From positions 1-43,181 of the forward strand of contig CACIOK010000007.1 in NCBI GenBank assembly GCA_902588255.1: a stretch of 43,181 nucleotides of DNA, in the 5' to 3' direction. A program made the position numbers and the translations under genes. The notes under the pieces are model-generated. The model was not told where the DNA came from, ran no database searches, and worked only from the letters and a program-made list of their open reading frames with translations. Below are positions 8,561 through 19,464 of this stretch, piece by piece (the stretch's first letter is position 1; every line of letters begins with the position of its first letter). The stretch is from an uncultured Pelagibacteraceae bacterium. GTDB taxonomy: Bacteria > Pseudomonadota > Alphaproteobacteria > Pelagibacterales > Pelagibacteraceae.

Positions 8561-9814
8561 ATGAAAAATAAATATTCTATATTTTCACTTATAAAGAATG
8601 CTTTTAGTTATCACGAAAATTGGCAAAGAGCATGGAGAGATCCTGAGCCTAAAAAAGAATATGAAGCTATTATAATCGGTGGTGGTGGTCATGGATTGGC
8701 TACTGCTTATTATTTAGCAAAAAAACACAACATGAAAAATATTGCTGTTCTTGAAAAAGGTTGGATCGGTGGAGGAAATACTGGAAGAAATACAACTATA
8801 ATAAGATCAAATTATTTATGGGATGCAAGCGCAGGATTATATGATCATGCTCTAAAAATTTGGGAAGGTTTGTCTCAAGAATTAAATTATAATGTAATGT
8901 TTAGTCAAAGAGGTGTAATGAACTTAGCACATAATCTTCAAGATGTAAGAGATTTAAAAAGAAGAACACACGCTAACAGATTAAATGGTATTGATGCTGT
9001 TTGGTTGAATACTGATGAAGTAAAAAAATTTTGTCCAATAATTAATACTTCGCCTAATATTAGATATCCAGTTTTAGGAGGAACTTTGCAAAGAAGAGCT
9101 GGAACAGCGAGACATGATGCTGTCGCCTGGGGTTATGCTCGTGGAGCTGATGCTATGGGTGTAGATATCATTCAAAACTGTGAACTTAAAGGAATAAAAA
9201 GAAATGGTAATAGTGTAGAAGGTATAGAAACAACAAAAGGTTTTATAAAAACAAAAAAAATTGGAGTAGTTGCTGCAGGACATTCTAGTGTTATTGCAAG
9301 TATGGTTGATTTAAAGTTACCTCTTGAAAGTAAACCTTTGCAAGCTTTAGTATCTGAACCAGTTAAACCAATTATAGATACAGTAGTTATGTCTAATGCT
9401 GTTCATGCTTATGTAAGCCAATCTGATAAAGGAGAATTAGTTATTGGTGCAGGAACTGATGCTTATGTTTCATATACGCAAAGAGGAAGTCATGATGTTG
9501 TTGAAGGTACTTTAAAGGCAATATTAGAACTCTACCCAATCTTTAGTAGAATGAAAATGTTAAGACAATGGGGAGGTATAGTAGATATATGTCCCGACGC
9601 TAGTCCAATAATAAGCAAAACACATATCAAAGGATTATATTTTAATTGTGGATGGGGCACAGGAGGATTTAAAGCAACTCCAGGATCAGGTGATTTGTTT
9701 GCTCACACTATTGCAAATGACGAACCTCACAAATTAAATGCTGATTTTAATATAAATAGATTTGTAAGCGGTGATCTAGTTGATGAACATGGAGCAGCTG
9801 CTGTAGCACACTAA
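8561..9814 (+). CDS. soxB: Sarcosine oxidase, beta subunit
   Basis: Flavoprotein subunit that oxidises sarcosine (N-methylglycine). It is the first gene of the heterotetrameric sarcosine oxidase operon. The dinucleotide-binding fold [13 protein letters not shown] is at 37-49, with an acidic residue ending the second strand (V-L-E-K). His185 in G-T-A-R-H-D-A-V sits where heterotetrameric enzymes carry covalently bound FMN; that assignment is by motif only. Length is 417 residues, close to the family's usual 400-410. Its stop overlaps the soxD start (TAATG at 9814). In marine SAR11-like cells this enzyme would complete glycine betaine or dimethylglycine breakdown to glycine. Confidence 0.95.
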
Positions 9815-10089
9815 TGTTTCTAATTAATTGTCCTTATTGTGGTGAAAGAGACCAGAGTGAATTTACAGCTGGTGGCGAAGCTCATATTGTAAGACCAAAA
9901 CAACCTACTGAATTAAGTGATGATCAATGGGCTGAATTTCTATTTATGAGAAAAAATATTAAAGGTATTCAGTTCGAAAGATGGAGTCATGCTCATGGAT
10001 GTAGAAAATGGTTTAATATGGTTAGGGATACATCTAACGATAAAATTCATGCTGTATACAAAATGGGTGAAAAACCTCCTATAAAATAA
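9814..10089 (+). CDS. soxD: Sarcosine oxidase, delta subunit
   Basis: Small zinc-binding subunit of heterotetrameric sarcosine oxidase, 91 residues. The Zn ligands C-P-Y-C (Cys6, Cys9) and a downstream H-A-H-G-C cluster (His59/His61, Cys63) are visible, as in characterised delta subunits. It lies between soxB and soxA with one-base TAATG overlaps on both sides, which favours equal expression of the subunits. Confidence 0.94.
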   Translation: MFLINCPYCGERDQSEFTAGGEAHIVRPKQPTELSDDQWAEFLFMRKNIKGIQFERWSHAHGCRKWFNMVRDTSNDKIHAVYKMGEKPPIK

Positions 10090-13000
10090 TGAGCAAAGAT
10101 TTAAGAATAACAAATAACAAGTTTATTGATCAAACAACTAGAATTTCTTTTAAATTTGATGGCAAAACTTTATATGGTTTTAAAGGTGATACTTTAGCTT
10201 CAGCATTATTAGCAAATAATATACATCTTGTTGGAAGAAGCTTTAAATATCATCGTCCAAGAGGAATAATGGCATGTGGTTCTGAGGAGCCTAACGCAAT
10301 AGTTCAGGTTGGAAGTGATGCTTCAATGACTGAACCGAATACAAGAGTAACTGAAATAGAATTATACGAAGGTTTAGAAGCGACAAGTCAAAATTGTTGG
10401 CCAAGTGTTAACTTTGACATAGGCGCTATAAACAATTTTTTCTCCCCTCTTATACCGGCAGCTTTCTATTATAAAACCTTCATGTGGCCTGCTAATTTTT
10501 GGAAATTATATGAATACTTTATAAGAAAATCTGCAGGTTTAGGTAAATCACCTACTAAACCGGACAAAGATATTTATGATCATAGATATTTACACTGTGA
10601 TGTTTTGGTTGTTGGAGGAGGTATATCTGGAATAATGGCCGCAAAAACAGCAGCTAAAAATAATTTAAATACAGTATTAATTGACGATAAAATTAATCTG
10701 GGTGGCACTACTCTTTTTCAGCAAAATGAGTGTTTTAAAATAAATAACACTTATTCAAACGAATGGTTAAAAAAAGAAATTGAATCTTTAAATTCTCTTA
10801 AAAATTTAACTATAAAAACAAGAACATCATTGGCTGCTTATCATAGCTACAATTATCTTTTAGCTAGAGAAAATTTGACAGACCATTTAGATATTAATGA
10901 AAAAAAAGATAAAGTTCGTCAAAGACTTTGGAAAATAAGGGCAAAAAAAGTAATTATATCTACAGGAGCGATGGAAAGACCATTGATTTTTAACAATAAT
11001 GATAGACCTGGGATTATGCTTTCATCGTCTATCAAAAAATACATAGATTACTATGGAGTTAAATGTGGCCAGAAAATATCTTTATTTACAAATAATGATT
11101 CAGCTTATGAAACTGCAATCTCTTTAAATAATAGTGGTGTAAATGTTAATTCAGTAATTGATATAAGAGATAAAACTAATTCCATTATAGTTAAGCAAGC
11201 AGAAGAATTAGGCATTAAAATTCATTGGAAATCTTCAATTGTAAATACAAATGGTTATAAAAAAATTAATTCTATTGAGATTATGAAATTGACAGATGAT
11301 GGTGCTGCTGTTGTAGGAGAAAAAATAAAAGAGCAATGCGATTGTTTAGGTATTTCTGGAGGTTGGACGCCACGTGTACATTTATTTACTCAATCTGGTG
11401 GCAAACTTAAATTTAGAGATGAAGATAATGTTTTTTTACCAGATAAATCAGAGTTAGATCAAATAAGTATCGGATCTTGCAATGGTGATTTTGAGCTTGA
11501 TGATGTAATAAAAAATTCAGTTACTTTAACAAATAAATTTTTAAATGTTGATAATAATGATTATGAAAATTTAGAAATTATTTCATCAAAAGAAACAACT
11601 AAAAAAAATATTTGGTTGCTTCCATCTGATAAACTTTTAAGTAAAGCCAAACAATTTTTAGACTTCCAAAACGACTCTACTGCAAATGATATAAAATTAG
11701 CTTTAAGAGAAGGTTTTAAATCAATTGAACACGTGAAAAGATACACAACAACTGGGATGGCTACAGATCAAGGAAAATTATCCAATATGCATGCTCTAGG
11801 AATTATAGCTGAAACCGCTGGAGTAAAAATGGGTGAATTGGGAACAACTACATTCAGGCCTCCTTACACTCCATTAACGTTTGGAGCAATTGTTGGAAGA
11901 AATGTTGGAGAATTTTTTGATATTACAAGAAAAACACCAATACATGATTGGCATGTAGAAAATAAAGCTGAATTTGAAAATGTTGGTCAGTGGAAAAGAG
12001 CTTGGTATTATCCTAAAAAAAATGAAAGCATGCATGATGCAGTCCAAAGAGAAAGTAAAGCAGCAAGAGATAGTGCTGGAATGCTTGATGCCTCAACACT
12101 TGGAAAAATAGATATTCAAGGAACCGATGCTTCAGAATTTTTAAATAGAGTGTACACAAACGCTTGGTCAAAATTAGAAATTGGAAAATGTAGATATGGA
12201 TTAATGTTGAATGAGGATGGAATGGTTTATGATGATGGAGTTACAACAAGATTAGGAGAAAATCATTACATAATGACAACGACTACCGGAGGAGCCGCAA
12301 ATGTTCTTTCTAAGCTAGAAGATTATCTGCAAACAGAATGGCCAGAATTAGATGTTTATTTAACATCGGTTACAGATCAATTCGCTACTATAAGTATTTG
12401 TGGTCCTAACTCAAAAAAAATTCTAACAAAAGTAATACCTGATTTGGACTTGTCAGATAAAGAATTTCCACACATGTCTTTTAAGAATGCCTCTATAAAT
12501 AATATCAAGTGTAGAGTAATGAGAATTAGTTTTACAGGTGAACATAGTTATGAAATTAATATACAATCTTCATTTGGAAAATCTGTTTGGGAAAAATGCT
12601 TTGAAGCAGGCAAAGAGTTTAATATTACGCCATATGGTACTGAAACGATGCATTTACTCAGAGCTGAAAAAGGATTTATTATAACAGGTCAAGATACCGA
12701 TGGAACAATGACGCCAGTTGATTTGCAGATGGATTGGATAATTAGCAAAAAGAAATATGATTTTATTGGTAAACGATCTTTGTACAGAAGTGATACAATT
12801 AGAGATGATAGAAAACAGTTAGTAGGATTAATAACAGAAGATCCAAAAGAAGTTTTAGAGGAAGGCGCACAAATAGTTTCTGAAATAAATAAAAAACCAG
12901 TTGAAATGTTAGGACATGTAACCTCTAGTTACTTTAGCCCAAATTTAAATAAATCTATTGCCTTAGCTGTTGTAAAAAACGGTAAAAACTTAAAAGGTCA

Positions 13001-13094
13001 TAAAATGTTTGTGCCCATGAAAAACAAAACTATAAACGTCACAATAACTGACTCTGTTTTTTTAGATAAAGATAACAAGAGGTTAAATGCTTAA
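10089..13094 (+). CDS. soxA: Sarcosine oxidase, alpha subunit
   Basis: Large subunit, 1001 residues, that holds NAD and a tetrahydrofolate site. An N-terminal ferredoxin-like segment includes Y-H-R-P-R-G-I-M-A-C-G near 55-65. An FAD/NAD fold follows, starting V-L-V-V-G-G-G-I-S-G at about 174-183. The C-terminal third is a GcvT-like aminomethyl/THF domain with motifs such as S-F-T-G-E-H-S-Y-E-I. In the family this domain captures the sarcosine methyl group as 5,10-methylene-THF, so carbon is conserved rather than released as formaldehyde. It overlaps soxG by 8 bases. Confidence 0.95.
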   Translation: MSKDLRITNNKFIDQTTRISFKFDGKTLYGFKGDTLASALLANNIHLVGRSFKYHRPRGIMACGSEEPNAIVQVGSDASMTEPNTRVTEIELYEGLEATSQNCWPSVNFDIGAINNFFSPLIPAAFYYKTFMWPANFWKLYEYFIRKSAGLGKSPTKPDKDIYDHRYLHCDVLVVGGGISGIMAAKTAAKNNLNTVLIDDKINLGGTTLFQQNECFKINNTYSNEWLKKEIESLNSLKNLTIKTRTSLAAYHSYNYLLARENLTDHLDINEKKDKVRQRLWKIRAKKVIISTGAMERPLIFNNNDRPGIMLSSSIKKYIDYYGVKCGQKISLFTNNDSAYETAISLNNSGVNVNSVIDIRDKTNSIIVKQAEELGIKIHWKSSIVNTNGYKKINSIEIMKLTDDGAAVVGEKIKEQCDCLGISGGWTPRVHLFTQSGGKLKFRDEDNVFLPDKSELDQISIGSCNGDFELDDVIKNSVTLTNKFLNVDNNDYENLEIISSKETTKKNIWLLPSDKLLSKAKQFLDFQNDSTANDIKLALREGFKSIEHVKRYTTTGMATDQGKLSNMHALGIIAETAGVKMGELGTTTFRPPYTPLTFGAIVGRNVGEFFDITRKTPIHDWHVENKAEFENVGQWKRAWYYPKKNESMHDAVQRESKAARDSAGMLDASTLGKIDIQGTDASEFLNRVYTNAWSKLEIGKCRYGLMLNEDGMVYDDGVTTRLGENHYIMTTTTGGAANVLSKLEDYLQTEWPELDVYLTSVTDQFATISICGPNSKKILTKVIPDLDLSDKEFPHMSFKNASINNIKCRVMRISFTGEHSYEINIQSSFGKSVWEKCFEAGKEFNITPYGTETMHLLRAEKGFIITGQDTDGTMTPVDLQMDWIISKKKYDFIGKRSLYRSDTIRDDRKQLVGLITEDPKEVLEEGAQIVSEINKKPVEMLGHVTSSYFSPNLNKSIALAVVKNGKNLKGHKMFVPMKNKTINVTITDSVFLDKDNKRLNA

Positions 13095-13647
13095 TTACAA
13101 TTCGCCTATCAAAGATCAAAAAGAGTATTCTGAAATTAAAATTTCAGAAGTTGAGCCTACATTAAAGTTAAATTTAAGAGGAAAAAAAAGAGATTTTATA
13201 ACTAAAATTGGAAAGGAACTTTCAATAATACCTCCATCAGATCCAAACACTTCATCCGGTAATGAAAAATTTAATATTCTTTGGCTAAGTCCAGATGAAT
13301 GGTTGCTTTATTCAAATGATAAAATAGATTTAAAAAATACAACTCTTTTAGAGGAAAAACTTTTTAACGAAGTATCCAAAAGTAAAATTGGATCAATTGC
13401 AAATGTTACAGACCATTGGATAATGTTGAATGTAAATGGTAAAAATACTTTTGATTTACTATCAACTGGATGTCCGTTCAATTTTAATAATTTTAAAAAT
13501 TCTAAAAATGCTGTAACACAAACGTTAATTAATCATATTGATGTAATTCTACACAATAAAGATTTAAATAACTTAAATTTATTTGTTAGAAGATCTTTTT
13601 CAAATCATTTATGGTCGTGGTTAAATGATAGCTCGAGATTTTTCTAA
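13087..13647 (+). CDS. soxG: Sarcosine oxidase, gamma subunit
   Basis: Fourth subunit of the heterotetramer, 186 residues, related in fold to the GcvT-like part of the alpha subunit. Supporting features are L-W-L-S-P-D-E-W-L-L-Y near 56-66 and the motif S-I-A-N-V-T-D-H-W near 107-115, where family members have V-T-D-x-S/W. Position at the end of soxBDAG supports the call more strongly than sequence alone, because gamma subunits are poorly conserved. The last 27 bases overlap the end of the convergent MATE gene. Confidence 0.88.
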   Translation: MLNYNSPIKDQKEYSEIKISEVEPTLKLNLRGKKRDFITKIGKELSIIPPSDPNTSSGNEKFNILWLSPDEWLLYSNDKIDLKNTTLLEEKLFNEVSKSKIGSIANVTDHWIMLNVNGKNTFDLLSTGCPFNFNNFKNSKNAVTQTLINHIDVILHNKDLNNLNLFVRRSFSNHLWSWLNDSSRFF

Positions 13648-14970
13648 TTTGTTTTTGATATAATAATTTACAATAATTAATAATATTATAGATACAAACC
13701 ATTGAAATATTACCCATAACCAAAAAAAACTATCGTAATCGGCACTTAAATAATCTGCTAAATAAAATACAATTATAGGAACAATAACATTTCTTGCTAT
13801 ATTATTAATCATAGCGTTTTCAGATTTTTTAAGAGCCATGAAAAATCCGTTTGTTAAAAAGAAAAATGGATAAGCAGGCAAAACAAAAGCAGATATTTTT
13901 AAATATCTTTTGCCATATTCAATCACTTGAAGATCGTCTGAAAAAAACTTTGGAATTACTGCAGATGTTAAAAAAATTAAAATTCCTGATACTACCATTA
14001 TAAAAAAAGAATATTTTATAGCTGTAAAATAAGTTTCTTTAATTCTAATATAATTTCTTGCACCAAAATTCTGAGCAATAATTGAAATTATTGCTGTATT
14101 TATTCCAAGTATTGGCAATAAAACTACTTGCTCTATTCTAGTAGCTGCACCATATCCCGCAGTCGCATACTCGCTTGTCATTCCTACATATTTAAATATA
14201 ATTGCTGATGCTATTGAATAGCCACAAATTGCTATTGTAATTGGCATAGATTGAAAAAAAATAGCAATTAAAAAATTAATTTTTGGATACAAATATTCTT
14301 TAGTTAATGTTTTTACTCTTTTATTTTGTAAAACTTTATAAAGAATAATTAAAAAGGATATAAACTGAGCAATTATTGTCGCAATACCAATACCTGCGAT
14401 ACCAAGAGGTGGAATAAATAAAAAACCAAATATTAAAATTGGATTTAAAATAATATTTAAGAAAAAAGAAAAAATTAAAATATTTCTATAGGTTTTAGTG
14501 TCACCTTCCGCATGTAAAAGTGAATTTAAAGCTACTACTAAAATAAATAATATAGAACCAGAAAAAATTATATCAGTATATTTTAATCCTAATGTAGTAA
14601 CAACATCAGTTGATCCCATTAATCGATAAACATTTTCAGAGAGATTTAAACCTAAAAAAGTTATTACAATAGAAATAAAAACACCAAAATAAATTGTATT
14701 TGTAAAAAAGTTTAATACTTTTTTTTTATCATTCTCACCAATACTGTTACCAATTAAAGATGTTCCGGCTACAGTAACTCCGATACAAGTAGCAATTATC
14801 ACAAAATATATTGGAAAAGATTTGCTTAAAGCTGATAAAGCTTCTGGTGAAATTTTTCCAGCATAAAATGTATCAACAATATTATATAGTGTTTGAAAAA
14901 GTGTTCCTACACTTGCGGGTATAGCAAGTTTTTTAACTAATTTAGGTATATTATCTTTTAATAAGTCCAT
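13621..14970 (-). CDS. MATE family efflux transporter
   Basis: Polytopic inner-membrane protein (449 residues, about 12 membrane segments) of the multidrug and toxic-compound extrusion family, which exports organic molecules in exchange for Na+ or H+. N-terminal family marks are L-A-I-P-A-S-V-G-T-L and Y-N-I-V-D-T-F-Y-A-G. The frame stays open upstream to 15171, but that extension lies inside trhO and looks soluble, so the start is placed at ATG 14970 (M-D-L-L-K-D-N), 16 bases after trhO. The substrate is unknown. It is the last gene of the gatCAB-led minus-strand run. Its 3' end overlaps soxG by 27 bases. Confidence 0.87.
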   Translation of the reverse strand: MDLLKDNIPKLVKKLAIPASVGTLFQTLYNIVDTFYAGKISPEALSALSKSFPIYFVIIATCIGVTVAGTSLIGNSIGENDKKKVLNFFTNTIYFGVFISIVITFLGLNLSENVYRLMGSTDVVTTLGLKYTDIIFSGSILFILVVALNSLLHAEGDTKTYRNILIFSFFLNIILNPILIFGFLFIPPLGIAGIGIATIIAQFISFLIILYKVLQNKRVKTLTKEYLYPKINFLIAIFFQSMPITIAICGYSIASAIIFKYVGMTSEYATAGYGAATRIEQVVLLPILGINTAIISIIAQNFGARNYIRIKETYFTAIKYSFFIMVVSGILIFLTSAVIPKFFSDDLQVIEYGKRYLKISAFVLPAYPFFFLTNGFFMALKKSENAMINNIARNVIVPIIVFYLADYLSADYDSFFWLWVIFQWFVSIILLIIVNYYIKNKLEKSRAII

Positions 14971-14986: not shown

Positions 14987-15886
14987 TTAATACTCTTTTT
15001 GAAAGATATGTCTGTTCCCAGTCTTTTTTGCAACATTAATTTGTTTTTGTCGCATCCTAAATCTATCTTTTTGAGTATTAGTAAGTGCGTCATGACATTT
15101 AGGACAAGAAACACCTTCTTCATACTTTTTTGATTTCTTATCTTTTTTTGAAACTGGATTTCTGCAGCCACTACACATTGAATAACTGCCAGGTTTTAAA
15201 TTATGATTAAGGCTAATTCTATTATCAAAAACAAAGCATTCTCCTTTCCATAGACTTTCACTTTTATCTACATTTTTAAAGTAGTTTATTATTCCACCTT
15301 TCAGTTGGTAAATATTTTTAAAACCTTTTTTTTCTAAAAATACTGAAGCTTTTTCACATCTTATTCCACCAGTGCAAAACATGGCTATCGATTTATTTTT
15401 ATCAAGCTTTTTTAAAAAATTAGGAAACTGTCTAAAATTTTTAATATTGGGATTTAGAGAATTTTTAAAAGATCCAACTTCATTTTCAAAAGGTTTTCTA
15501 GCATCTATAAGTATAGTATTTTTATCACATATTAATTGATTCCATTTTTTTGGACTTAAATGACCGACTGTTTTTCTATTTTTAATTTTAATACCCATTG
15601 GAACGACTTCATTTTTAATTTTAATTTTAGATCTATGAAATGGCTGAAATGTATTTATTGAGACATTTTTGTTATCAAAATTAGTAAAATTAAAAGTTTT
15701 TTGAATTTTTGAGATTGCTAAATTTAAATCTTTTTTTTTACCAGAGATGGTTCCGTTAATTCCTTCAGAAGAAATTATTAACGTTCCTCTAATATTTTTT
15801 CTTAAAAAAAAATTATTTAGTACTTCTTTATATTTTGAAAGTTTCTTTAATTTTTTAAATTTATAAAAACCAAAAATATGATACAT
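14987..15886 (-). CDS. trhO: tRNA uridine(34) hydroxylase, rhodanese-like (TrhO/YceA)
   Basis: Rhodanese-fold protein of the TrhO family, which uses oxygen to form 5-hydroxyuridine at wobble position 34 of certain tRNAs. An N-terminal acylphosphatase-like domain carries S-S-E-G-I-N-G-T at about 39-46. The rhodanese loop is C171-T-G-G-I-R-C177-E-K. The C-terminus bears a Cys-rich module (C-S-G-C near 230-240, then C-P-K-C) typical of the family. Length is 299 residues. Its ATG shares one base with the stop of the upstream O-methyltransferase (TAATG at 15886), so the two are likely made together. Confidence 0.91.
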   Translation of the reverse strand: MYHIFGFYKFKKLKKLSKYKEVLNNFFLRKNIRGTLIISSEGINGTISGKKKDLNLAISKIQKTFNFTNFDNKNVSINTFQPFHRSKIKIKNEVVPMGIKIKNRKTVGHLSPKKWNQLICDKNTILIDARKPFENEVGSFKNSLNPNIKNFRQFPNFLKKLDKNKSIAMFCTGGIRCEKASVFLEKKGFKNIYQLKGGIINYFKNVDKSESLWKGECFVFDNRISLNHNLKPGSYSMCSGCRNPVSKKDKKSKKYEEGVSCPKCHDALTNTQKDRFRMRQKQINVAKKTGNRHIFQKEY

Positions 15887-16542
15887 TATAATTTCCTACA
15901 AACATTTAGCCCATCACCTAATGGGATAATTAAACTTTCAGTTCTTTTATCACTATTAATATAAGAATTAAACTCTCTAATACTTAATGTTAACTTATCA
16001 TTTTTTTTTTCATCAATTACATCACCGTGCCATAAAACATTATCAGTAATTATTAAGCCATTTTGATCAATTAAGTCTAATGAAGCTTCATAATAATTTT
16101 TATAATTTTCTTTATCAGCATCAATAAAAACAAGTTCAAATTTTTCTTTTTTTTCCTTTAGAAAATTTAAACTCTCTAAAGCTGGTGCAATTAATGTTTG
16201 GATTTTATCATCTTGTTTTGCTTTCTTAAAAAAATTCAATGCAATTTTATTTGTTTCATTGTTTTTATCTAAAGCAGTAATTCGTCCATCATTAGGTAAA
16301 GCGAGTGACATTGATAGAGTACTTAAGCCAGTAAATGTGCCAATTTCTAATATTTTTTTTATTTTTGTAATTTTAATTATTAAATGTAAAAAATGACATT
16401 GAGATATTGCTATTTGCATTTTCTTAATTTTTCCCAAGCTTTCGTTATATAAGATTATTTCTTTTTGTATTTTATTTAGTTTTAAGGAATGACTATTAAT
16501 ATAGTTCTCAATTTCATTATTGATGCTAATATTTGAACTCAT
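15886..16542 (-). CDS. SAM-dependent O-methyltransferase, possible TrmR-type tRNA methyltransferase
   Basis: Class I methyltransferase of the caffeoyl-CoA O-methyltransferase-like family, 218 residues. The SAM motif L-E-I-G-T-F-T-G-L-S is at 65-74. Metal/substrate residues are suggested by F-I-D-A-D-K (Asp141, Asp143) and T-D-N-V-L-W-H-G (Asp167-Asn168). Family members include TrmR (YrrM) of Bacillus subtilis, which methylates 5-hydroxyuridine-34 of tRNA to 5-methoxyuridine. Here the next gene is trhO, which makes 5-hydroxyuridine, and the two share a TAATG junction; this context favours a TrmR-like role. It starts one base after gatB ends. A small-molecule O-methyltransferase remains possible. 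Confidence 0.82.
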   Translation of the reverse strand: MSSNISINNEIENYINSHSLKLNKIQKEIILYNESLGKIKKMQIAISQCHFLHLIIKITKIKKILEIGTFTGLSTLSMSLALPNDGRITALDKNNETNKIALNFFKKAKQDDKIQTLIAPALESLNFLKEKKEKFELVFIDADKENYKNYYEASLDLIDQNGLIITDNVLWHGDVIDEKKNDKLTLSIREFNSYINSDKRTESLIIPLGDGLNVCRKL

Positions 16543-16543
16543 T

Positions 16544-18010
16544 TTATTTGAGTTTTTTTTTTAAAATATCATTAATTAATTGAGGATTTGCCTTTCCACT
16601 AGAAGCTTTCATTGCTTGTCCAACGAAAAAACCAAATAATTTATCCTTACCAGATTTGTATTCATTAACTTTATCTGGATTGTCATTAATAACTTTATCA
16701 ATCAGAAGTTCTATCTCTTTAGGATCACTCAGTTGTTTAAGGCCTTTTTTTTCAACTATTTCTATTGGATTTAGATCTTTTTCAGCCATTATTTCAAAAA
16801 CAGATTTGGCTATTTTTCCTGAGATAGTACCATCTTTTATTAAATTTATTAATTTTGATAAATTTTTTGCACTAATTGGGCTTTTTGATATTTCAAGATT
16901 TTTATCATTTAGTAAAGCAAATAACTCACCTGTTATCCAATTTGTTGAAAGTTTTACATCAGAATTTTTAATAACTTCTTCAAAATATTTAGATGTTTCA
17001 ATATCTGAAACTAGAATATTTGCTTCATAAGCAGATAAATTAAATTTATCTATAAATCTTTTTTTCTTTTCATCAGGTAATTCCGGTATATTTTTTTTTA
17101 TATCATTTATAAGATCATCACTTATCATTAATGGTAGCAAATCTGGATCGGGAAAATATCTGTAATCATGTGCATCTTCTTTCGATCTCATTGATCTAGT
17201 TTCGTTTTTTTTTGTATCAAATAATCTGGTCTCTTGATCTATGGATGCGCCTTCCTCTATAAGGTCAACCTGGCGATTTGCTTCATATTCTATAGCCATT
17301 TGCATAAATTTTATTGAGTTAACATTTTTAATTTCACATCTTGTTCCTAATTTTTCCTCACCTTTTTTTCTAACAGACACATTAACATCTGCTCTTAGAG
17401 AGCCTTCTTGCATATTGCCATCGCAAGTACCCAAATATCTCATGATTGATCTTAGTTTTTTTATGTAAGCATTAACCTCATCTGGAGATCTAAGATCTGG
17501 TTTACTAACAATTTCCATTAAAGCTACACCTGATCTATTTAAATCGACTAAAGTATTTTGTGGGTCAATATCATGAATACTCTTTCCTGCATCTTGTTCT
17601 AAATGTAACCTTTCAATACCAATAATTTTTTCGCCTGAAGGTAAATCGAGTATTACAGAGCCTTCACCAACGATTGGGTCTTTATATTGTGATATTTGAT
17701 ATCCTTGTGGAAGATCAGCATAAAAATAATTTTTTCTATCGAAAATTGATCTTTTGTTAATCTTAGCCTTTAACCCTAATCCAGTTTTTACAGCTTGTTT
17801 AATACAAAACTCATTAATTACAGGTAACATTCCAGGAAAAGCAGCATCAACTAGGCTGACTTGAGTATTTGGTTCTGCGCCAAATTTTGTTGCTGAACTA
17901 GAAAAAAGTTTTGATTCAGATGAAACCTGAGCATGAACTTCTAAACCAATTATTACTTCATAGTTATTTTGGTTTCTTTTAATTATATAGTCAGAATGCT
18001 TTTTTGACAT
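16544..18010 (-). CDS. gatB: Aspartyl/glutamyl-tRNA(Asn/Gln) amidotransferase subunit B
   Basis: tRNA-binding kinase subunit of GatCAB, which converts misacylated Glu-tRNA(Gln) and/or Asp-tRNA(Asn) to the amide forms. The family start [13 protein letters not shown] is near residue 17. The [16 protein letters not shown] motif and a C-terminal YqeY/tail domain ending in K-K-K-L-K follow. I place the start at ATG 18010 (488 residues), which overlaps the gatA stop by one base; an ATG at 18022 would add four residues. The pair is typical of alphaproteobacteria lacking one or both amide tRNA synthetases. Confidence 0.95.
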
Positions 18011-19464
18011 TATATCCACCAATCATTCATTTTATTTTTAAACTTTATTTCTTGTTCTAAAGAATAAGCAATATTAAGAATATTTTGTTCATCAAAAGCT
18101 TTACCGATAATTTGAAGCCCCAGTGGATAACCCTTTTGATCATGGCCTGCTGGAATAGATATTGCAGGTAAACCAGCTAGATTTATTGGAACTGTAAATA
18201 TATCATTTAAATACATTGATACTGGATCATTTGTTTTTTCGCCAATTTTAAACGCTGAGCTTGGTGTTGATGGAGTTAAAATTGCATCAACTTTTTTATA
18301 TACTTCATCAAAATCATTTTTAATTAATCTTCTGACTTTTTGTGCTTTAAGATAGTAAGCATCGTAATATCCAGATGACAAAACATAAGTACCAATCATT
18401 ATTCTTCTCTTAACCTCATTTCCAAAACCTTCAGATCTAGTTTTTTCATACATATCAATTAAGTTCTCTCCTTCAGATCTAAAACCATATTTCACACCAT
18501 CATATCTTGCTAGATTTGATGATGCTTCAGCTGGGGCAACAATATAATAAGTGGGCAAGGCATAATTTGTGTTTGGTAGAGACACATCAAGGATCTCAGC
18601 ACCAGCATCTTTTGCTATATTAATTCCCTTCTGCCAAAGATCTTCGATTTCTTTTGGCATTCCATCTACTCTGTATTCTTTTGGTATGCCAATTTTTTTT
18701 CCTTTGATCGATTTGTTTAATTTTTTAAAATAGTCATCTCTTTTAAAGTTTATTGAGGTTGAGTCTTTATTGTCGTAAGAACTAATTACACTAAATAATA
18801 AAGCACAATCTTTAACATCACGAGTCATGGGTCCAGCTTGATCAAGTGATGATGCAAAAGCGACTATTCCATATCTTGAGCAACTACCATAAGTTGGTTT
18901 TAAACCTACGATACCGGTAAATGATGCTGGTTGCCTTATCGAGCCACCCGTATCAGTACCTATAGTTGATGGTGTCAATTTTGCAGCTAAGGCAGAAGCT
19001 GATCCACCAGAGGATCCACCTGGAACTAACTTTTCTCCAACGGGACTTTGTACATTGCCAAAAAAACTAGTTTCATTAGAAGATCCCATCGCAAACTCAT
19101 CACAATTAAGTTTTCCTAAAAGAATACCTCCTTCGTTCCAAATATTATTTGTTACTGTAGACTCATAAGTTGGTATAAAATTTTCTAAAATTTTACTGCC
19201 TGCTGTTGTTCTTACGTTTTTTGTACAAAATAAATCTTTAACTGCAATTGGTATGCCTGGGAGTTTTTTATTAAAGTCAGGTTTGCTATCAAAATTATCT
19301 GCTTTTTTTAACGCACTTTCAAAATCTTCGGTAATATAAGTATTTAACTTTTTTGATTTTTCAGATCTTTCTATATATGTTTTTGTAATTTCTTTAGAAG
19401 ATAAATCCTTTTTTTTAATTCTTTCAACTAAATCAACTAATGTGAAGTCTAAAATATTTGACAT
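18010..19464 (-). CDS. gatA: Aspartyl/glutamyl-tRNA amidotransferase subunit A
   Basis: Amidase subunit of GatCAB that hydrolyses glutamine to supply ammonia. It has 484 residues. The amidase-signature triad is visible as Lys76 (I-A-V-K-D), Ser151 in G-G-S-S-G-G-S-A and Ser175 in [10 protein letters not shown]. The lengths between these residues match characterised GatA. It has TAATG junctions with both gatC upstream (19464) and gatB downstream (18010), so the three subunits are probably translated in a coupled way. Confidence 0.97.

Follow-up and report, generated by a model that had tools for sequence, protein, structure and literature searches.

Does an O-methyltransferase (OMT) whose gene overlaps that of the tRNA hydroxylase TrhO act on the product of that hydroxylase, so that the two proteins complete one modification of the tRNA wobble position, U34? 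In Bacillus subtilis, TrhO or the pair TrhP1-TrhP2, together with the methyltransferase TrmR (YrrM), form the route to 5-methoxyuridine (mo5U34) (PMC6599085). The CmoA/CmoB route of Escherichia coli proceeds from the same precursor, 5-hydroxyuridine (ho5U34), and serves comparable codon boxes (PMC6599085). The DNA analyzed here, referred to as the window, is a stretch of 43,181 nucleotides that forms contig 7 of a 901-kb SAR11 genome, which is 73% complete. From the sequence of the window, the initial annotation proposed a complete route from ho5U to mo5U in one alphaproteobacterial operon, which would replace CmoA/CmoB and widen wobble decoding with a reduced tRNA set. The explanation considered likely here is that SAR11 tRNAs receive an xo5U-type wobble nucleoside from the OMT-TrhO pair, and that in at least two lineages a protein of the U32 family took the place of TrhO while OMT was kept.

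Gene order and the TrhO protein

The two genes, their TAATG junction and their place one base behind gatB, as described in the initial annotation, were confirmed at 14987-16542 (Table 1). The order on the minus strand is gatC-gatA-gatB, OMT, TrhO and a transporter gene. A single base, 16543, lies between the stop of gatB and the start of OMT, and TrhO is spaced 16 bases from the transporter gene if the latter starts at 14970. The last gene of a run resembling sarcosine oxidase, which lies beyond the transporter gene, is also located near the transporter in the genomes G011, G013, G029 and G042.

Table 1. Positions of the features of the locus in the window and of two genes close to U32 in the ETNP genome
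Feature	Position	Strand	Basis or remark
OMT, class I (cation-dependent) O-methyltransferase, 218 aa	15886..16542	(-)	Pfam PF01596; proposed ho5U34-tRNA methyltransferase with TrmR-like function, of a different subfamily
TrhO, putative O2-dependent tRNA U34 hydroxylase, 299 aa	14987..15886	(-)	NCBIfam NF001133; CTGGIRC motif
OMT stop / TrhO start, one-base overlap TAATG	15886..15886	(-)	
gatB, upstream neighbour of OMT	16544..18022	(-)	Separable from the pair
MATE-type transporter gene, downstream of TrhO	13621..14970	(-)	Name and start codon by eye
Four-gene run resembling heterotetrameric sarcosine oxidase (soxBDAG)	8561-13647		By eye
Neighbours of U32 in the ETNP genome: HemN-type gene, ALAS-like gene	L222:6132-7490 and L222:4778-6013		ALAS-like gene named by eye

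The naming of TrhO in the initial annotation also held. With 264.8 bits, the protein exceeds the curated cut-off of the NCBIfam TrhO model (170), and it scores 204 bits against the Legionella homologue 4f67. Its motif is of the CXGGXR type, which is present in 43 of the 44 rows from SAR11 loci. In E. coli TrhO, the residues C200, T201, G203 and R205 are essential, and R114 is needed (PMC6599085); in the alignment to that enzyme, these four residues and K112 are kept, and R114 is replaced by Lys. As a genuine member of its family, SAR11 TrhO would be expected to make ho5U34 with O2.

The methyltransferase

The OMT matches Pfam Methyltransf_3 (PF01596) with 198 bits (cut-off 22), and its relationship to TrmR was judged by score and fold rankings, the trees containing no Firmicute TrmR row. 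Against solved structures, the single sequence reached 151 bits with 3r3h, 143 with 3cbg, 86 with TrmR (5zw3) and 69 with 8k1f, and a profile of 22 rows reached 235, 219, 121 and 129 bits, respectively. The predicted fold (pLDDT 93.7) is best matched by SafC at Z 33.2, vs Z 28.6 for TrmR. SafC, SynOMT of Synechocystis and the caffeoyl-CoA class I OMTs, which act on small catechols or phenylpropanoids, have a common fold with the SAR11 protein (Z 30-33), 32-37% identity and the same invariant Asp, Asp-Asn and Lys residues. By sequence and predicted structure, the OMT resembles these enzymes and is not close to B. subtilis TrmR. A TrmR orthologue of the B. subtilis type was considered and rejected, because small-molecule OMTs outscore TrmR by sequence, profile and fold alike. 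The TrmR kinship on which the initial annotation had drawn could thus not be maintained: as far as these rankings can tell, the OMT groups with small-molecule class I enzymes, away from TrmR. The profile scored 138 bits against an Anaplasma structure, vs 235 against 3r3h; the OMT of Ehrlichia is presumably of the Anaplasma type.

The residues D141, K144, D167 and N168 are invariant in all 52 OMT rows, which represent 43 distinct places, and they are also present in genomes without TrhO. From the family description in PMC6543040, the columns of D141, D167 and N168 would correspond to the metal ligands (two Asp and one Asn). The name of the family proves nothing by itself, since Rv0187, a COMT relative, showed no detectable action on ho5U-tRNA (PMC6543040).

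Conservation of the pair within SAR11

The family survey covered 147 Pelagibacteraceae genomes, in which TrhO was counted at a match above 100 bits; TrhO was found in 118 of them and a clear OMT match in 123. OMT lies directly upstream of TrhO and on the same strand in 114 of the 118 TrhO-bearing genomes, and in the remaining four (G096, G084, G118 and G013) a contig end cuts the start of TrhO, so that the upstream gene is not visible. The same gene order in so many genomes is not due to chance, and relatives do keep the pair together, as the initial annotation had expected. The junction was measured in 43 rows, with the TAATG overlap (-1) in 27, a gap of 0 in six, +1 in five and no ATG near the aligned TrhO start in five; as seven rows repeat a place, the counts per place are 23 of 36 (-1), five (0), four (+1) and four (no ATG). 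In G013 (L131), TrhO (truncated at the contig end) and the transporter gene lie on the same contig as OMT but in the opposite orientation, which reflects either a rearrangement or an assembly error.

Adjacency was not accepted as the sole proof of a shared function. Of 43 family rows, 42 have gatB adjoining OMT and 32 contain the transporter gene, so these neighbours are conserved too and adjacency alone is weak. Breaks in this order were therefore sought. In G067, the block of OMT, TrhO and transporter is located elsewhere, among genes that by eye resemble those of NADH dehydrogenase, and its TAATG junction is unchanged; in G118 the OMT lies behind other genes while gatB is on another contig with other neighbours. 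These breaks indicate that the OMT-TrhO pair is more stable than its position behind gatB; that position, to which the initial annotation had drawn attention, is the usual SAR11 gene order, but it is broken in G067 where the pair persists.

Neither OMT nor TrhO was found in 23 genomes of the family. Only five of these yielded gatB (G030, G061, G110, G139 and G142), which implies that the region is mostly unassembled in them, and in G061 and G142, where gatB has other neighbours, the pair may fall in sequence that is absent from the assembly. Joint losses of both genes were therefore not counted.

Loss of TrhO and the U32 protein

The strongest evidence comes from genomes in which TrhO has been lost, independently at least twice in SAR11. 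OMT occurs without TrhO in six of the 147 genomes, of which two (G034 and G055) have a contig that ends at OMT. In the other four (G011, G029, G042 and G121), the transporter gene directly follows OMT, TrhO is missing and the OMT frame is intact. These four genomes fall in two places of an OMT tree of 40 family rows, equivalent to two changes, and a single clade is rejected (p-AU 0.0001). Purifying selection on OMT after the loss of TrhO was discarded as an argument, because the dN/dS of the closest TrhO-less pair, 0.58, comes from seven differences and is uninformative.

A peptidase-U32 protein is encoded in three of the 147 family genomes, exactly G029, G042 and G121, and a scan of a 397-genome draw for U32 returned the same three only, TrhO status being known for the 147. 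The loss of TrhO and the U32 gene thus occur together, in three of four TrhO-less vs none of 118 TrhO-bearing genomes (Fisher p 1.4e-5, kinship ignored), with only two independent pairs for a sign test, too few to reach significance. No U32 gene was found in G011, which is 71% complete. On a 131-kb contig of G029, U32 and OMT occur together, so that mis-binning is no explanation there, a point that applies to G029 and not to G042 or G121. The U32 proteins (L218, L219 and L220; L221, L222 and L223 in the named records) share 86-91% identity across three SAR11 genera, vs 77-81% for GatB, and the nearest relatives found outside SAR11 belong to Bacteroidales, with 60% identity. Taken together, these identities point to a horizontal spread of the U32 gene.

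The U32 family includes TrhP, RlhA and UbiU, which are O2-independent hydroxylases, and the subfamily of the SAR11 proteins is ambiguous. They could be RlhA-type hydroxylases of C2501 in 23S rRNA or O2-independent quinone hydroxylases, in which case the swap would show no tRNA substrate shared with TrhO. BLAST against E. coli places RlhA first (155-165 bits), ahead of UbiU (132-146) and TrhP (112-124), and the scores against the NCBIfam TrhP model, 178-185 bits, stay below its curated cut-off of 534. Nevertheless, this reading appears rather unlikely. NCBIfam profiles rank TrhP above UbiU, though no RlhA model is among the matches. UbiU acts together with another U32 protein, UbiV, yet each of the three carriers, which are 75-93% complete, has one U32 gene only. 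Moreover, the absence of U32 from every TrhO genome means that its gain would have had to coincide with the loss of TrhO. The Peptidase_U32 domain is matched with 220-225 bits in all three proteins; U32_C (PF16325) is unmatched, in L218 even at E 10, and about 100 residues follow the U32 domain. A structure model of the U32 protein was discarded for its mean pLDDT of 42.6.

The reading preferred here is that the U32 protein would make ho5U34 and the OMT would convert it to mo5U34. As the OMT is kept with either hydroxylase, its substrate is probably ho5U34, a possible product of both, and the hydroxylase swap therefore independently favours a role of the OMT in methylating ho5U.

OMT and TrhO in other Alphaproteobacteria

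In a wider survey of 241 alphaproteobacterial genomes, three of them SAR11, 92 contain TrhO and 90 have an OMT match. A general alphaproteobacterial operon did not emerge: OMT was present in the fetched flank of none of 88 TrhO genes from outside Pelagibacteraceae (89 found, one contig-edge fragment left out), 30 of these flanks being about 1.5 kb long and some cut by contig ends. The 238 non-SAR11 genomes comprise 21 with both genes, 66 with OMT only, 68 with TrhO only and 83 with neither, a negative association (odds 0.39, p 0.0014) from which it follows that the wider OMT family mostly does something else.

A class tree of all 87 non-SAR11 OMT rows was built with a quick method, and the placement of a few long or fragmentary rows in it is unsure. 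One side of a branch in this tree holds 60 TrhO-minus and five TrhO-plus rows, and the SAR11 side holds 16 TrhO-plus and six TrhO-minus rows. The OMTs that group with SAR11 (G397, G305, G319 and G314) come from TrhO genomes in four of four cases vs 21 of 87 overall, with supports that are weak to modest and kinship not controlled. The SAR11-like branch of OMTs may thus have an older tie to TrhO. Separately, the OMTs of three other TrhO-bearing alphaproteobacteria, L245 (G310), L246 (G278) and L247 (G279), group together and are candidates for a further TrhO-linked methyltransferase branch; L245, the only one of the three tested, scores highest against the Anaplasma phagocytophilum structures 4pca/4oa5 (157 bits).

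The negative association across the class, along with the small-molecule OMTs as closest solved relatives, is what would be expected if the OMT acted on a catechol-like metabolite or another non-RNA substrate. It would then adjoin TrhO by conserved gene order, as it adjoins gatB, and it would be retained where TrhO is lost, the gain of U32 and the loss of TrhO being separate responses to anoxia. This possibility is judged improbable, since the pair remains intact in the other neighbourhood of G067, U32 is confined to genomes that have lost TrhO, which represent two independent lineages, and the class-tree OMTs nearest to SAR11 are all TrhO-plus, to the extent that the tree is supported.

Decoding and the Cmo route

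The complete relative G078 has 32 tRNA genes, without a C34 tRNA for six NYN boxes (Leu-CUN, Val, Ser-UCN, Pro, Thr and Ala), and its Ala and Pro boxes are served by U34 tRNAs alone. The reduced tRNA set postulated in the initial annotation is therefore found in G078, which depends on U34 for reading codons that end in G. The incomplete genome of the window, with 23 tRNA genes, likewise has no C34 tRNA for the six boxes, in which G-ending codons account for 3.9-7.2% (36 window ORFs). The absence of the E. coli route was upheld for its cmoB part: no match exceeds the curated cut-off in any of 41 genomes (the window's own and 40 relatives), compared with one of 14 control genomes, and methyltransferases match the model below the cut-off in all 41. 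On G000:C41, a CmoB-like methyltransferase of 266 aa, whose gene adjoins one resembling ABC transporters, was rejected because its match falls under the cut-off.

These observations suggest that OMT and hydroxylase complete one tRNA wobble modification. TrhO would hydroxylate U34 with O2 to ho5U34, and the OMT, a class I, Mg-dependent enzyme that is no orthologue of B. subtilis TrmR, would methylate the 5-hydroxyl with SAM to yield mo5U34. With mo5U34, the U34 tRNAs would read beyond A-ending codons in the six boxes. At least two lineages of SAR11 would have lost TrhO by deletion and acquired a U32-family protein, which is probably an O2-independent hydroxylase, without giving up the OMT. That TrhO alone matters, with the pathway ending mainly at ho5U34 and the OMT methylating it incompletely or in certain tRNAs only, is highly improbable: ho5U34 in E. 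coli tRNA-Ser1 can decode UCG (PMC6599085), but the OMT accompanies TrhO in 114 of 118 genomes of this small-genome lineage and keeps its invariant residues. The route from ho5U to mo5U thus survives in part, with a genuine TrhO, a conserved pair and a U34-dependent tRNA set, but with a methyltransferase nearer to small-molecule enzymes than to TrmR and an operon that is not class-wide.

Low-oxygen setting

TrhO requires O2, whereas TrhP-mediated hydroxylation does not (PMC6599085). A U32 scan of named genomes retrieved three SAR11 records, the Tara bins ERR599062_bin.175 and ERR599031_bin.40, and IIa.A_ETNP2013_S06_SV43_300m, which presumably are G029, G042 and G121. The title of one carrier's record thus names clade IIa.A, the ETNP and a depth of 300 m. 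Clade IIa.A is abundant in oxygen-deficient zones, and Candidatus Anoxipelagibacter denitrificans is endemic in them (PMC12598773). For the Tara bins ERR599062 and ERR599031, no publication on their habitat was found. In the ETNP 300 m genome, a HemN-type radical SAM gene and a gene for an ALAS-like PLP enzyme (the latter identified by eye) lie about 2-4 kb from the U32 gene, the HemN-type gene at a distance of about 3.5 kb. HemN-type enzymes are O2-independent by family, and these genes perhaps form a cluster for life without oxygen.

It is somewhat more probable than the contrary that in low-oxygen SAR11 a U32 hydroxylase independent of O2, acquired horizontally, replaced TrhO and the same OMT was kept, which would maintain mo5U34 through anoxia and supply the TrmR function from a different OMT branch.

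Relation to known systems and implications

Like the B. subtilis route, the SAR11 route would combine a hydroxylase (TrhO or U32 proteins) with a SAM methyltransferase of the PF01596 type. In B. subtilis, however, trmR forms an operon with the hydroxylase genes trhP1/trhP2 (PMC6599085), whereas the SAR11 methyltransferase is of another subfamily and is paired with trhO, not trhP, and no U32 protein occurs in TrhO-bearing SAR11. In contrast to SafC, SynOMT and the caffeoyl-CoA OMTs, its gene is linked to that of a tRNA hydroxylase, and unlike E. coli, SAR11 has no cmoB over the cut-off in the 41 genomes.

The two-step route itself is already known, as are trmR without trhP in the alphaproteobacterium Ehrlichia canis, where it is expected to pair with another hydroxylase, and fused trhO-trmR genes in two Phytophthora species and a diatom (PMC6599085). 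The part of PMC6599085 that was available contains no description of the SAR11 operon or of a hydroxylase swap, and in a limited literature search no title or term count among the matches listed ties SAR11 to TrhO, TrhP or U32. As far as these matches reach, two things are new: an operon in SAR11 whose methyltransferase is not of the TrmR kind, and the exchange of one hydroxylase for another.

The hydroxylase swap represents a natural genetic test of the substrate of the OMT, and it suggests that the wobble modification was rebuilt for oxygen-free water. Methyltransferases that form mo5U may escape recognition by similarity to TrmR alone. With the OMT-TrhO pair, the way in which SAR11 bacteria read all codons becomes directly testable.
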